This document shows, piece after piece, positions 39,694 through 58,504 of a DNA stretch of 64,000 bases (positions within the stretch are counted from its first letter, which is position 1; each line of letters starts with the position of its first letter). Made by a program: the position numbers and the translations under genes. Source of the DNA: Isotricha intestinalis (Eukaryota; Ciliophora; Litostomatea; Vestibuliferida; Isotrichidae). Below the pieces are notes generated by a model. That model saw nothing but the letters and a program-made list of their open reading frames with translations, did not search any database and was not told the origin of the DNA. The stretch covers positions 1 to 64,000 of the forward strand of contig JAJJLU010003468.1 of NCBI GenBank assembly GCA_023807065.1. The letters are read 5' to 3'.

Positions 39694-41589
39694 TTAAATA
39701 TTTTTATTTTCATTATTATAAATATTAAACATAAGTTCCCAAATTGCTTTTTTCATATATGCTGTTTCTAATACAGACCATAAGAAAATTAAGCATATTT
39801 CTTTTAAAACTTTTTCCTTAATTGGGTAATGTGGATCTAATAAATTTTGTTTTATTAATATTAATCTATTTATTATACCATCTATTTCATAACAATCAAA
39901 TAAAGTTTTTTTCATTTTTTCTTGAAAAGATTCTTTTTTTTCTTTGTCTTCTATAATAAAAGAAAAATCTATTTTTTCTAAATAAATTTTTAAATTATTT
40001 ATTTCTTTAAAAATTTCTAATTTATTTATCATTAAATTTATTTCTTCTCTTAATTGATTTTCATTTTTTAAAGTTTCCATAGTATTTTTTATTAAAGTTT
40101 TTAAATTTAAACTTGATTCAATAATATGTTTAAAAATAAAATAATCATTTATATCAGTATTTTTCATTTTCATTAATTTATCAAAAAAAGTTCCAAATTT
40201 TTTACTTTGTTCATCAAAAGAATTTATAATTTTATCAACAACATTAATTTTAGATAAAATTATTTTATTTTTTCCAATAGAATTATTGTTTTTTTTATAA
40301 ACTTCTTTTAAAGCTTCTTTTACATTTTCCATTTCATAAGTTTTTAAAATTAATTTATTTAAACCAATTTTATAAACAACTCTTTCTAATTGTTTTAATT
40401 TAAAAGTAAAAGGAAGAAAATTAGAATATTCTTTTGAAATAATTTTTTTATATTCTGTTAAACTTTCTGCTTTATTAAATTCTTTTTGTACATAATCATC
40501 AAATTCTTCTTTTTTTTTTTTAAATTTTTCATCTTCAAAAGGGTAATTATACCACTCCTTTTTATCATGATTAATATTATTTAAACTTTTTATACTTTTC
40601 ACACTTTTTTTTAATTTTTTATCATCAATAAATTCTCTATCATAAAATTCATTATTTAAATCTTTTACTTTTAAAATTTCAGGATGTGAATTGTCAGTCA
40701 TAATAAAAGTTGATTGTTTATCTATAAAATTTTTTGCTTGTTTAATTTTATCATCGAAACTTTCATTTAAACTTTTTTTTTCAAATAATTTAAATATATC
40801 ATTTAAAACATTATTTAATTGTAAAAATGGATTTCCACTTTTTTCTTCTATATAATCTTCATCTTTACTTAAATCTTCTTCATCATCTTCTTCATTTTCT
40901 TCTTTATTTGAAAACATACTTTTTTTTATTTTACTATTTTTTTTTTTTAATTCTCTTTCTCTAAATTTAATTTGGTCAATTTCATCATCACTTAATTTTT
41001 TATATTTAACACTAATTTTATTATCATTATGACTAATATTAAAAATTTTATATTCAATGAAAATTTGTTTAGGAGAAAAAAAATTAGAATAATAATTAGG
41101 AATAAATTCACTACTTCCCCAAACAAATAATTTATTACTTTTATCAATAGCAAAAGAAGTATTTTTACAAATATGAATTTTCTCAATAACAATTTTATTA
41201 TTTAAAAAATAATCAATGCAAATTGGATAATTTTGATAAGTTAACATATTATTCCCTAAACCTAATTGTCCATAATAATTATTTCCTAATGAATGAACTA
41301 ATCCTTTATTATCTAAAAATAATATGTGATTATTTCCTTTTTTCATTTTTTTAATTTCACTTTTATGCTGAAATTTTAAATTTTCTGGTTCTTTCACTCC
41401 TTCTTGTTTTCTTATTACTTCTCCTTTATCTGATAAGAAATACATGAAGTTATGAAAAAAAAAAATTCTTGATGTTTTTGATTTTGTATATTGTGGAATT
41501 ATTCTTAGATCTTCTGTTGCAAATTGAGTTATTTTTTTTCCATTGTGTTTTAATGTTCCATCTCCCCATCCAACGAAAACTTCTGTCAT
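39694..41589 (-). CDS. RCC1-like N-terminus fused to a long coiled-coil protein
   Basis: The first ~170 residues carry RCC1-type propeller blades: VFVGWGDGTLK, FLDNKGLVHSLGNNYYGQLG with LGNN, and KLFVWGSSEF. Only three or four blades are visible, fewer than the seven of a full RCC1 propeller, so this is a partial or diverged one. Residues ~180-631 are charged and helical (KFRERELKKK, EEDDEEDLSKDED and many Leu/Lys/Glu helices). It may be a scaffold rather than a Ran exchange factor. Confidence 0.65.
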   Translation of the reverse strand: MTEVFVGWGDGTLKHNGKKITQFATEDLRIIPQYTKSKTSRIFFFHNFMYFLSDKGEVIRKQEGVKEPENLKFQHKSEIKKMKKGNNHILFLDNKGLVHSLGNNYYGQLGLGNNMLTYQNYPICIDYFLNNKIVIEKIHICKNTSFAIDKSNKLFVWGSSEFIPNYYSNFFSPKQIFIEYKIFNISHNDNKISVKYKKLSDDEIDQIKFRERELKKKNSKIKKSMFSNKEENEEDDEEDLSKDEDYIEEKSGNPFLQLNNVLNDIFKLFEKKSLNESFDDKIKQAKNFIDKQSTFIMTDNSHPEILKVKDLNNEFYDREFIDDKKLKKSVKSIKSLNNINHDKKEWYNYPFEDEKFKKKKEEFDDYVQKEFNKAESLTEYKKIISKEYSNFLPFTFKLKQLERVVYKIGLNKLILKTYEMENVKEALKEVYKKNNNSIGKNKIILSKINVVDKIINSFDEQSKKFGTFFDKLMKMKNTDINDYFIFKHIIESSLNLKTLIKNTMETLKNENQLREEINLMINKLEIFKEINNLKIYLEKIDFSFIIEDKEKKESFQEKMKKTLFDCYEIDGIINRLILIKQNLLDPHYPIKEKVLKEICLIFLWSVLETAYMKKAIWELMFNIYNNENKNI

Positions 41590-41769: not shown

Positions 41770-41845
41770 TTGATCATCAGATGTCTATTTTGGCATCAAG
41801 GAATTATTATTCAGTGCCATGCATGAGTGATCATCATTTAATTTA
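41770..41845 (-). ncRNA. C/D-box small nucleolar RNA candidate (18S rRNA 2'-O-methylation guide)
   Basis: Read on the minus strand: a perfect box C (ATGATGA, 41831-41837), D' (CTGA, 41811-41814), a C'-like TTGATGC (41793-41799) and box D (CTGA, 41777-41780), spaced 16, 11 and 12 nt apart as in C/D snoRNAs. The guide before D' includes the complement of GCCATGCATG (plus-strand 41816-41825), a 10-nt segment conserved near the 5' end of 18S rRNA. By the D+5 rule it would direct methylation of the A in GCCA. The guide before box D could pair with AUGUCUA, which directly follows in 18S rRNA, or with another short 18S stretch; that part is weak. The flanking stem is poor. The patch is clearly richer in G+C than the rest of the gap. 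Confidence 0.7.
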
Positions 41846-41902
41846 AAATAAGATATAATAATTCATTTATATTTTTTTAATAAATATTAAATTAATATAA
41901 TA

Positions 41903-44900
41903 ATGTCAATAATCATAATATTAAATTTAATAATTCAAGTATCAACAAATTTTAAAATAAATTTATATTTAATAGCAAATGAAACGATAAATTCAATAAG
42001 TATAAATTCTAAAACATATAATCCACAAAAAGAAATTTTTCCAAAATTATATAATTTAGAGTATGAAAGTAATCCAGGAGAAGAAATAATTATTTCAATG
42101 AAACCTTCAATTGAAAAAAAATGTAAATTCAATGGAGCAATTAAATTATCAAAAAATGAAAAAATATATTTTGAAGAATTTAATTTATGGAACAATAATT
42201 ATAATTATAGTTATGAATTTTATAATATTAATGGAAATAATATTTCTCTTTTTATTATTGAAGCAATTGAAAATTATTGTAATTTTACTTATATTATTCC
42301 AATTAATTATACTTGTCAAAATTATTCTTTTAATAATTTATTTTTAAATCAAGAATATAAATTAAATACAAGAGAATATATATCAGATATTTATGAAGGA
42401 AATTTTGATTCTACTGATAGTTTATTTATTATATTTAAAAATATCTCAAATTCAATTATTTTATATGATGAAAAAGAAGAGAAAATAAATGAGAATAAAG
42501 AATATCCTTTAAAAATTTATAAATATAAATTTATCAATTCTGGATTAATAAATGTTACTTTTATAGGAAAAAGTAAAACAGAAATAGAAAAATCAAATAA
42601 AAATTATTATTTTGAATTTAAAGTTTGTTATAAAACATGTAAGAGTTGTAATGAAGAAAGTAAAGATGAATATAATCAAAAATGTGAAGAATGTATTAAT
42701 GATTATTATAAAAAAGAAAATGATTCCTATAAAAATTGTTATAATGAAACTCCAGGACAAAATTATTTTTTAGATAATTCATCAATCCCAAATTTATATA
42801 GAAAATGTGATGATAATTGCTCTTCTTGTTTAAATAAAAGTTATTGTTTATCATGTTTGAATGGAACATATATAGTAGAAAAAACTCATAATTGTATTTC
42901 AATAAATGATAAACCAGCAAATACTTTTTTTGATAATTTAACTAATACTATAATTGAATGTTATTCTTATTGTACTTGTGAAAATAAAGGAAATGAATAT
43001 AATCATAGTTGTATAAAATGTTTAGATAATTATTCTAATACTGAAGATAATTTATATAATTGTTATAATAATAATGAAACTTTAGAAAAATATTTTTTTA
43101 ATGGTTCTTTATTTAAACGTTGTTATCAATTATGTAAAACATGCTACACATCAGGAAATATATATAATAATTCTTGTAATGAATGTATTGATTATTATTA
43201 TTTTATTTATGATGATAATTTGATATATAATTGTATAGAAGAAGGGACTCAACCTATAAATTATTATTTAAATGATAATGATACTTATTTAAAATGTTAT
43301 AATAATTGTTTAAGTTGTTCAAATGGAGGAAATAGTGACAATAATAATTGTAGTAAATGTATTGATAATTATATTTTAATTACTGGAAATGAAAAACAAA
43401 ATTGTGAAAATTTAGAAGAAATAAATAATAATGATATTACTTTAAATAATTTATTACCTTTATATAATGATAATTTTGAAAGTTTTTATAGTTTTAAAAT
43501 AGTTTTAATTAGAAATGAAAGTTTTTATTTTTATTATTCTCCTTCTTTAATTAATTATAATGAATATTTAATTTATCCTTTTATTATTTTAGGAATTCAA
43601 TGCCAAAGAAATTTAAAGTCAAAATATAATTATGAAAAATTAATATTTGCTGAAAATGTTAATCAAAGTAATTTAACAAATTTTACTTTTCATCTTTTTT
43701 TAAATAATAATGAAATAAATTTAACCGAAGAATGTAATAATCATTCTTTTATAAAACAATTTCCAATTAATAAAACAAAAATTGATAAAAATTTATTATC
43801 TCAAATTTTATTAAGTGAAGATTTAAATAATTTAATATTAATAATAAATAATTTAGATATATTTAATTCTTCATCTGAGTTTTATTTAAATCCTTGTTTA
43901 TCTTTCATAATAAATAATAAAGAAATAGAATTAAATGAAAGACAAAATATGTTCTTAAATGAATTAAATTTATGTCCTGAAAATTGTACTTTAGAAAGTT
44001 TTGATTTATTATTAAGAATAATAAAATGTAAATGTTATTTTAATGATTCTTATTATCATATTAATAATAATAAGATATTTGAAAAAAATTTTTTTTCTAA
44101 AAAAGAATTTGAAATTTACGGTTTGAGTATTTTTTCTTGTTATCAAATTTTTTATTCTTTTCCAAAATTTGAAAATATATTTTTCCATTATATTCTTTTA
44201 ATCATTGAAATAATAATAATATTATTATTTAGTTATTTTTGGTTTTTTGAAATGAAAAAAATAAAAAAGTATTTATATTCAAATTTTTTTTCTAAAGCAA
44301 ATCCACCTAAAGAAATTTCTTTTAATTTAGGAAATGATAGTTTTGATAATATAATAGAATTAAAAACTTTTTCAAGAAGTGAAAATCAAAATAATGAAAG
44401 TTTAATTTCTTCAAATAATTCTAATTTTACTTTTCAAATGAATAATAGTTCAATTAAAAATGAAACAAAAATAGATTTCAAAAAAGAAAGTATTGAAATT
44501 TTTTATAAGAAATTATTTATTATTTCTTTATTTAATTCATATTCTAAAAATTCAATTGTTTTTCCTTTTTCTTTAAAAATTTCTGAAAATTTATTTTTGT
44601 TATCTTTTATTTCTTTTTCTTCTTCTTTTTCAATTGATAAAGATTCTAAATATTCAATAAATACTTTTAGAAATTATTCTATTATTATAATAACAATAAT
44701 TTTAAGTTGTTTACTTCAACAAATTATCTTTTATTTAATGAAACAAGAAAAAATTTATAAAGTTGGGAAAAATAAGAAAAATATTATTATTAAATTTGTT
44801 AAAAATTTACGGATTAAAACTTCAATATTTTATATTATTTTTATATTTTTTGGTCTTATTTTCTGGTATTTTACTTATATTTTTTGTGTTATTCATAAAG

Positions 44901-45019
44901 ATTATCAAATAATTTGTTTCATTAATTTTGGTATAAGATTTTTAGGAATTTTAATTTTTGATTTTATTATAAATATTATAATTATTTATTATTCAAAAAA
45001 TAATAGTTCAAGTTTATAA
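41903..45019 (+). CDS. Cys-rich surface protein with C-terminal multi-TM region (1038 aa)
   Basis: Signal peptide at the start (MSIIIILNLIIQVSTNF). The ectodomain has many NxS/T sites and a Cys-rich zone (~242-502) made of repeated CxxC units: CKTCKSCNEE, CEECIND, CDDNCSSCLNKSYCLSCLNG, CKTCYTS, CNECIDYY, CLSCSNGG, CSKCIDNY. A TM helix is at ~761-783, then an Asn/Ser-rich cytosolic loop, and about four more TM helices (~886-1031). This is the same plan as the gene at 10060-14211, so the two are members of one family. A sensing or adhesion role at the cell surface is inferred. Confidence 0.8.
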   Translation: MSIIIILNLIIQVSTNFKINLYLIANETINSISINSKTYNPQKEIFPKLYNLEYESNPGEEIIISMKPSIEKKCKFNGAIKLSKNEKIYFEEFNLWNNNYNYSYEFYNINGNNISLFIIEAIENYCNFTYIIPINYTCQNYSFNNLFLNQEYKLNTREYISDIYEGNFDSTDSLFIIFKNISNSIILYDEKEEKINENKEYPLKIYKYKFINSGLINVTFIGKSKTEIEKSNKNYYFEFKVCYKTCKSCNEESKDEYNQKCEECINDYYKKENDSYKNCYNETPGQNYFLDNSSIPNLYRKCDDNCSSCLNKSYCLSCLNGTYIVEKTHNCISINDKPANTFFDNLTNTIIECYSYCTCENKGNEYNHSCIKCLDNYSNTEDNLYNCYNNNETLEKYFFNGSLFKRCYQLCKTCYTSGNIYNNSCNECIDYYYFIYDDNLIYNCIEEGTQPINYYLNDNDTYLKCYNNCLSCSNGGNSDNNNCSKCIDNYILITGNEKQNCENLEEINNNDITLNNLLPLYNDNFESFYSFKIVLIRNESFYFYYSPSLINYNEYLIYPFIILGIQCQRNLKSKYNYEKLIFAENVNQSNLTNFTFHLFLNNNEINLTEECNNHSFIKQFPINKTKIDKNLLSQILLSEDLNNLILIINNLDIFNSSSEFYLNPCLSFIINNKEIELNERQNMFLNELNLCPENCTLESFDLLLRIIKCKCYFNDSYYHINNNKIFEKNFFSKKEFEIYGLSIFSCYQIFYSFPKFENIFFHYILLIIEIIIILLFSYFWFFEMKKIKKYLYSNFFSKANPPKEISFNLGNDSFDNIIELKTFSRSENQNNESLISSNNSNFTFQMNNSSIKNETKIDFKKESIEIFYKKLFIISLFNSYSKNSIVFPFSLKISENLFLLSFISFSSSFSIDKDSKYSINTFRNYSIIIITIILSCLLQQIIFYLMKQEKIYKVGKNKKNIIIKFVKNLRIKTSIFYIIFIFFGLIFWYFTYIFCVIHKDYQIICFINFGIRFLGILIFDFIINIIIIYYSKNNSSSL

Positions 45020-57116: not shown

Positions 57117-58504
57117 TAAATGTTGTTTTAATTTAAATATTTAATTAAATAAATAAAAAAAAAATATTTTAAATAAAAATTAAATATCATACAAAAAATT
57201 TAAATACATATCATCAACTAAAAAATACTATCTTTTATTTTCCTTTTTAATTTTTAAAATCTTATATAAAAAATATGAAATTTATTACAAAATCTTTTTA
57301 TTCGTAGTAGGCAATTAAATTTATCTTTTATTGTTTTGAATATTTTTATAATAAATATATTATAAAAAATAATAAATCTATCTTATTTTTTAAAATATTT
57401 TATATATGTCATTGAATCCTCAAAAGACATAATCCAATAATTCTAAATATACAATATTAAGAATTACAATTAAATATTCTTTCCTAATTATGTAATATAT
57501 ATTCTTTAGATAATACCTCAAAATTATATCTGTGTTCTAAAGAATCTTATAATATAACTCCTTTGCTAATTACTCAACAACAATCCTATATTGCATAAAA
57601 TGGCTAACTACGAATTCACCTATCCATCCCTATAACTTTCAAATTCCACATATCTTTCTTCTTTTCCATTCATTTATTTTTTGTTTTTTATTTTATCATT
57701 CTCTTAAAAAAGAAATTTTCTGTTAACTTGTTCTAATTAGGATTAGAGGTACCTAAGATATTTTCTTTATTTATTTTAATTCAATATTTTTCTCCTATTT
57801 TTTTAAATAATTATCTGTTCATCTGTTCTAATATATATTATAAGATTTAATTAATTAAAAATTAATCTATTTTTTTAAATTTATCTTATTTTATAATTTC
57901 AAAATCTTTTTGTTTGATCCATTGTTTTACGTAAAAATCAAAAATTAATTCTTTTTTTCTATATATAACATTTAAACCTGAAATCATATGTAAATCATTA
58001 GAAAACATAATATAATGTTTTTTTTAAATATTTATTATAATATTAATTTATTTTAAATAATTTTTTAATTTTAAAATTATAAATCAAATTGGGAGTTTGG
58101 GGAGGAAAATTTAAGGAGATTAGAGAATTATGTTTATTTATTTTAATTTGTTTATTTTATTTTTTTCTTATCAGTTGTCTATTAAATATCTTCTTATTTA
58201 TCACAATCATATTAATTTGAATAATTATTTCCTAACAAATTTCATCTATTATTTTTTTAACTAAAGGCTCCTAAAGAATCGAAATGTATCCATTCATATA
58301 ATAATAACATATAAAACCAAAATAAGTCATCTCTAGAGGCATAATAATAGCTAACAAAATTGATGAATTATCAGAAAATTAATTGTATCTTTTGTATTAA
58401 TAAAATTCAACCAATCTTTTTATTTGGTTAATGTTTATACTTTATTATATCAATTTTTGTTAATTAATAATATTATTTTATAATGACAAAATTTTTTATT
58501 TAAT
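57117..58504. other. 1.4-kb gap between TTLL and Rab genes, with short ORFs and remnants
   Basis: No long ORF. The part 57480-57720 has more G+C than usual. Minus-strand pieces near 57410-57560 (DSLEHRYNFEVLSKEYILHN with TAG and TAA breaks) look like old coding sequence. A purine-rich, G-rich patch lies at 58091-58130 (GGGAGTTTGGGGAGG). No tRNA, snRNA or complete C/D-box pattern found. Confidence 0.45.
57886..58008 (-). CDS. Possible microprotein, 40 aa
   Basis: An ATG-to-TAA frame reading MFSNDLHMISGLNVIYRKKE and continuing LIFDFYVKQWIKQKDFEIIK. It has a Trp, a His and well-mixed polar and hydrophobic residues, unlike chance ORFs in this composition. It could be a tiny gene, one exon of a larger one, or the last intact piece of a dead gene. 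No family recognised. Confidence 0.3.
   Translation of the reverse strand: MFSNDLHMISGLNVIYRKKELIFDFYVKQWIKQKDFEIIK

Follow-up and report, generated by a model that had tools for sequence, protein, structure and literature searches.

The short intergenic region between two divergent genes in this DNA raises the question of whether it encodes a box C/D snoRNA and, if so, whether that RNA guides methylation of 18S rRNA, as a sequence-only reading had proposed. The assembly totals 57.3 Mb in 2,153 contigs. The window (the whole stretch of DNA analyzed, 64 kb), which lies on contig C904, has a G+C content of ca. 17%. Its open reading frames (ORFs) are long in the standard code, with 33 of at least 150 amino acids, and the encoded proteins include VPS11, a tubulin-tyrosine-ligase-like protein, and MORN, kelch, and Ras proteins. 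Use of the standard code has been reported for the trichostome ciliate Muniziella cunhai (PMC11316547, excerpt). The candidate locus, which has a single match in its own genome, lies in the 313 bp between two divergent ATG-start ORFs that begin at 41589 and 41903. The first of these (39694-41589, minus strand) encodes an RCC1-repeat protein and starts 187 nt downstream of the candidate D box on the same strand, whereas the divergent ORF (41903-45019, plus strand), whose start lies 65 nt from the C box on its upstream side, encodes a cysteine-rich protein of 1038 amino acids. The latter protein has no Pfam match at an E-value of 0.001; it carries repeated C-x2-C motifs, with hydrophobic segments toward its C-terminal end. 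The candidate RNA may have its own promoter or be transcribed together with the RCC1 gene, as part of its 5' leader.

Box scanning of the gap identified a 61-nt element, measured from box to box (41777-41837, minus strand). Read from position 41837, it consists of a C box, ATGATGA, which fits the RUGAUGA consensus (41831-41837); a 16-nt D' guide arm, TCACTCATGCATGGCA (41815-41830); an exact D' box, CTGA (41811-41814); 11 intervening nucleotides; a C'-like box, TTGATGC, with two mismatches to RUGAUGA (41793-41799); a 12-nt D guide arm, CAAAATAGACAT (41781-41792); and a D box, CTGA, that ends at 41777 (41777-41780). The C' box is commonly degenerate in RNAs of this class. The element therefore has the RUGAUGA and CUGA boxes that define C/D RNAs, together with internal D' and C' boxes, in the order, on the strand, and at the coordinates that the sequence-only reading had described. 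A scan for the full arrangement, RTGATGA-CTGA-C' (up to two mismatches)-CTGA, returned this one candidate from both strands of the 64-kb window and none from 100 simulated 64-kb order-3 Markov strands. The claim that the element forms a G+C-richer patch in an A/T gap also held, with 36% G+C in the element versus 10% in the remainder of the gap. Of the 32 intergenic gaps, 29 have a length of 61 nt or more; among these, the highest G+C content of any 61-nt segment (0.377) was found in the candidate's gap, followed by 0.361 in the runner-up. The location is non-coding: no stop-free frame that crosses the element exceeds 26 codons. The mature RNA would probably be ca. 65-75 nt in length.

Structure and family searches gave less distinctive results. 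We found no terminal stem: folding energies were +0.2 kcal/mol with flanks of 12 nt and -4.1 kcal/mol with flanks of 25 nt (random median, -3.2 for the latter). Such stems are common, though not universal, in C/D snoRNAs. Likewise, the candidate region folds no better than shuffled sequences (z = -0.62), which is not required of C/D RNAs. No Rfam family reached its gathering score in the window. In a lax search the element matched four families of C/D snoRNA with E-values of 1 to 6.3, far under their cut-offs; the best score was 22.5 bits, as compared to the snoR09 cut-off of 50.

The sequence-only reading had identified the segment complementary to the guide as part of 18S, near its 5' end. 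Running the guide against the organism's own 18S could have sunk this interpretation; instead, the target proved to be present. The SSU rRNA gene lies at C1:7630-9271 (1,642 nt), where the eukaryotic SSU model matches from its first to its last position and the sequence resembles that of a litostome (gut) ciliate, and GCCATGCATG, found on the plus strand of the window at 41816-41825, recurs at nucleotides 48-57 of this 18S. Across the 57.3-Mb assembly GCCATGCATG occurs at only three places, namely the 18S, the candidate locus, and contig C162, and its reversed control at none; the C162 copy (L045) falls, by its coordinates, within a 180-amino acid minus-strand frame. The D' arm forms 10 uninterrupted Watson-Crick pairs with 18S 48-57 through its positions -2 to -11, with a duplex energy of -18.8 kcal/mol. 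The D' box is thus adjoined by a guide with 10 nt of rRNA complementarity that spans the D+5 position, and a 10-bp duplex that starts at -2 without mismatch is what functional guides normally show. Applying the D+5 rule places the target at 18S A51, an adenosine, as the sequence-only reading had it. The contig that carries this gene (L047, C1:1-10000) encodes the 18S, then the 5.8S, and then the first 380 nt of the LSU, which is cut short by the end of the contig at exactly 10,000 bases; Rfam also places a 5S gene on its minus strand, ca. 1.8 kb before the 18S. Searches of the assembly for two motifs from further along the LSU gave no match.

How much weight the guide match can bear was assessed by shuffling and by sampling genomic sequence. 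When the guide was shuffled 20,000 times and starts were restricted to -2 and -3, 48 shuffles reached a 10-bp match; with starts from -1 to -4, 979 of 200,000 reached at least 10 bp anywhere in the 18S. Among the 16-mers that precede CTGA in ca. 200 kb of sequence from the same genome, 7 of 751 had a 10-bp match to 18S, the candidate's own included. Adding the LSU as a possible target would raise these match rates about threefold. By the shuffles and the genomic 16-mers alike, the guide match taken alone is only moderately improbable; the earlier statement that chance would hardly give a 10-nt match is too strong on this basis, and a 10-bp guide match by itself is modest evidence.

The D arm is less informative. 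Its matches to 18S are 7 bp only, at 55-61 (through positions -1 to -7), 114, and 1222 (start -3), and there was no better match in the SSU, the 5.8S, the 5S, or the first 380 nt of the LSU. The match at 55-61 adjoins the D' target and overlaps the D' duplex by 3 nt; because the first three pairs of the D arm are the ones that overlap, both duplexes could not fully form together. Shuffled D arms reached 7 bp within 18S 30-80 in 120 of 20,000 cases. In Arabidopsis, extra interactions of 7-15 bp accompany 45 of 104 sites, and more than half of these extra pairings are immediately adjacent to the primary ones (PMC8053127, excerpt). We considered whether the arm marks the candidate as a homolog of guides for other 18S sites. 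The arm resembles TTCTATTTTG, which we take to be a segment of other eukaryotes' 18S; since it makes at most seven Watson-Crick pairs with its own 18S, the idea of such homology was dropped.

These properties of the D arm bear on the first alternative, that the element encodes a genuine C/D snoRNA that mainly does something other than guide A51 methylation: the D arm could guide modification of a site in the LSU or in an snRNA, or the pairing with 18S could act as a chaperone without methylating. That the D arm lacks a strong 18S target (7 bp), and that the assembly has only the first 380 nt of the LSU, would fit such a role, and the Tetrahymena snoRNA TtnuCD32 has predicted targets at which no methylation was found (PMC6315972, excerpt). 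We nevertheless regard this alternative as unlikely, in view of the 10-bp, mismatch-free D' duplex starting at -2.

A second alternative is that an A/T-rich intergenic stretch happens to contain the boxes and a 10-nt match, and that no RNA is made. Matches of 10 bp to 18S precede ca. 1% of genomic CTGA sequences, and the candidate has neither a terminal stem nor an Rfam match at cut-off, all of which this explanation would accommodate; however, the arrangement of the boxes, the G+C content, and the guide are largely independent features, and each of them is unusual, which argues against chance. We therefore consider a chance origin very unlikely. Finally, it is extremely unlikely that CATGCATG, a perfect palindrome in an element between divergent genes, is a protein-binding site in a shared promoter and the boxes incidental, because the whole 64-kb window, for all its 33 ORFs of 150 amino acids or more, contains a single copy of CATGCATG, and the genome three of GCCATGCATG, one of them in the 18S, which is not the behavior of a recurrent promoter motif, and because this reading leaves all four boxes (C, D', C', and D) unexplained.

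The odds for a genuine snoRNA also depend on what else in the genome matches the same pattern. RTGATGA-N10-20-CTGA-N15-40-CTGA was found at 84 places genome-wide, as compared to one in the reversed control. The other 83 matches were re-read as 82 loci, with 89 occurrences when nested starts are counted apart. Most of the excess of 84 over 1 reflects coding bias, because 85 of the 89 occurrences lie within stop-free frames of at least 85 codons (in any of the six frames, cut at the ends of the locus). The remaining four lie in frames shorter than 60 codons: L081 (0 codons), L018 (28), L124 (42), and L031 (55). Two of these were rejected as snoRNAs, L124 because it sits in a stretch of degenerate repeats and L031 because it reads as lysine-rich low-complexity sequence. 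As the strict box pattern misses most snoRNAs, these counts are not a census. The related pattern TGATGA-guide-CTGA had no match in viral contigs and 12 matches, in bacteria, among 257 Gb of genome contigs, which by our estimate is about the number expected by chance.

The other two loci are more convincing. L018 (C66:15726-15796, minus strand; 1501-1571 of the locus) has the D' guide GATAGGGACA and a clear A/T terminal stem, with energies of -5.5 kcal/mol (12-nt flanks) and -8.7 kcal/mol (25-nt flanks). Its D arm seems to pair just downstream of what we presume to be the same LSU segment. The same guide, GATAGGGACA, is printed as that of the Entamoeba U74/snR64 homolog, Me-Eh-LSU-C2414 (PMC3542256, excerpt). 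Thus, the few non-coding matches to the pattern include a member of a real snoRNA family, and L018 serves as a positive control from the same genome. The U74/snR64 family differs from the candidate in its target (LSU C2337 in yeast), and L018 in having the terminal stem that the candidate lacks. The third locus, L081 (C918:46758-46820, minus strand; 601-663 of the locus), matches the box pattern and has the D' guide ATCACGACGGTC, which presumably complements the invariant LSU segment GACCGTCGTGA; its terminal stem is also poor (+0.2 kcal/mol with 12-nt and -1.7 kcal/mol with 25-nt flanks). Both of these convincing non-coding loci thus resemble snoRNAs, which raises the odds for the candidate in the window.

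The genome also encodes the methyltransferase that such an RNA would need, with three fibrillarin matches over the Pfam cut-off (one on contig C263 and two places on C219). The candidate resembles the guide snoRNAs of eukaryotes in its boxes, their spacing, its length, its D+5 pairing with rRNA, and the presence of fibrillarin in the genome; it differs from them in having no detectable terminal stem. We conclude that the minus-strand element is very probably a genuine box C/D snoRNA. Guidance of 2'-O-methylation at 18S A51 is the best explanation of its sequence and is likely to be its function. Taken with the target in the organism's own 18S, the position of A51, fibrillarin, and the two further snoRNA-like loci, the earlier proposal stands as a supported prediction. 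By the known mechanism, a complex of Snu13, Nop56, Nop58, and fibrillarin would bind the RNA via its C/D and C'/D' motifs, the D' arm would pair with 18S 48-57 of the same genome, and fibrillarin would then add a 2'-O-methyl group to A51, the position given by the D+5 rule. More speculatively, the 7-bp complementarity of the D arm to 18S 55-61 might provide extra pairing that helps to hold the target.

The sequence-only reading had suspected that the site is unusual, and this is so as far as our comparisons reach. The 35 sites given for Arabidopsis 18S in Table 1 of PMC8053127 do not include A51. A review of Arabidopsis 18S methylation counts 79 predicted and 44 verified sites, so that other predictions near A51 are possible (PMC8351944, excerpt). 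In Entamoeba, A27, G41, and A83 are listed, and the string SSU-A5 does not occur in the main text (PMC3542256, excerpt). A literature search for Am51 together with snoRNA gave no match, and one set of 15 papers did not contain the target letters at all. Where papers matching the guide or target letters were inspected, the matches proved to be a fragment of trypanosome rRNA and primers used in cloning, the other papers being judged by title. To our knowledge, A51 is not a methylation site in yeast or human 18S. The segment around it is, as far as we know, nearly invariant, and A51 is not known to be methylated in yeast, human, or plants.

The U27/snR74/PFS4 family (18S Am27/Am28) also directs methylation to an adenosine close to the 18S 5' end (PMC3542256, excerpt), but its target, A28, lies 23 nt upstream of A51 and is reached by a different guide; in our view the candidate is not a homolog of this family. 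As a second positive control we searched for a U27-like gene with AAGCATATNNCTGA, which occurs at seven places versus one for the reversed control. None of the six places inspected was clearly a snoRNA, so this control failed and the U27 gene was not found. One non-coding locus, L064 (C895:143241-143254, minus strand), has GCATATATCTGA followed by TTGATGA; it is similar to the D' portion of U27-type guides directed at 18S A28, without a clear C box.

The candidate adds a member to a very well-known class of RNA, and its mechanism is textbook; we are aware of little cataloging of C/D snoRNAs in non-model ciliates. If the prediction is true, it adds a site of methylation to a portion of 18S that is among the most highly conserved. 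Very A/T-rich genomes make C/D snoRNAs readable from sequence, and if the candidate is real, a simple route is available to the remaining C/D set in such genomes. It is conceivable, though unlikely, that the A51 guide was gained in this ciliate lineage and that its two arms clamp a continuous segment, 18S 48-61, so that the RNA would both guide methylation and assist folding, as a chaperone, close to the 18S 5' end.

Two minor features of the region deserve mention. Directly before the C box lies a 17-nt A/T stretch, ATCTTATTTTAAATTAA (41838-41854, minus strand), of which 16 of 17 nucleotides are identical at L081 in the same register. Elsewhere in the window, ATCTTATTTTAAATTAA has no match with up to one mismatch and eight with two; genome-wide, with up to three mismatches, it has 93 matches versus 22 in the reversed control. 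Besides the candidate and L081, 23 of these matches keep an intact RTGATGA. No normally spaced D'/D pair was seen in the 20 of these 23 that were examined; two of the 20, L129 and L136, have CTGA at odd spacing. The stretch is possibly a leader or promoter element; as it is known before two loci only, its recurrence may also be due to chance. The second feature is the gap at 57117-58504 (1.4 kb with no ATG-start ORF of at least 150 amino acids), in which the second-highest 61-nt G+C patch (0.361) is found and which could house an RNA gene or a protein gene that is short or spliced.
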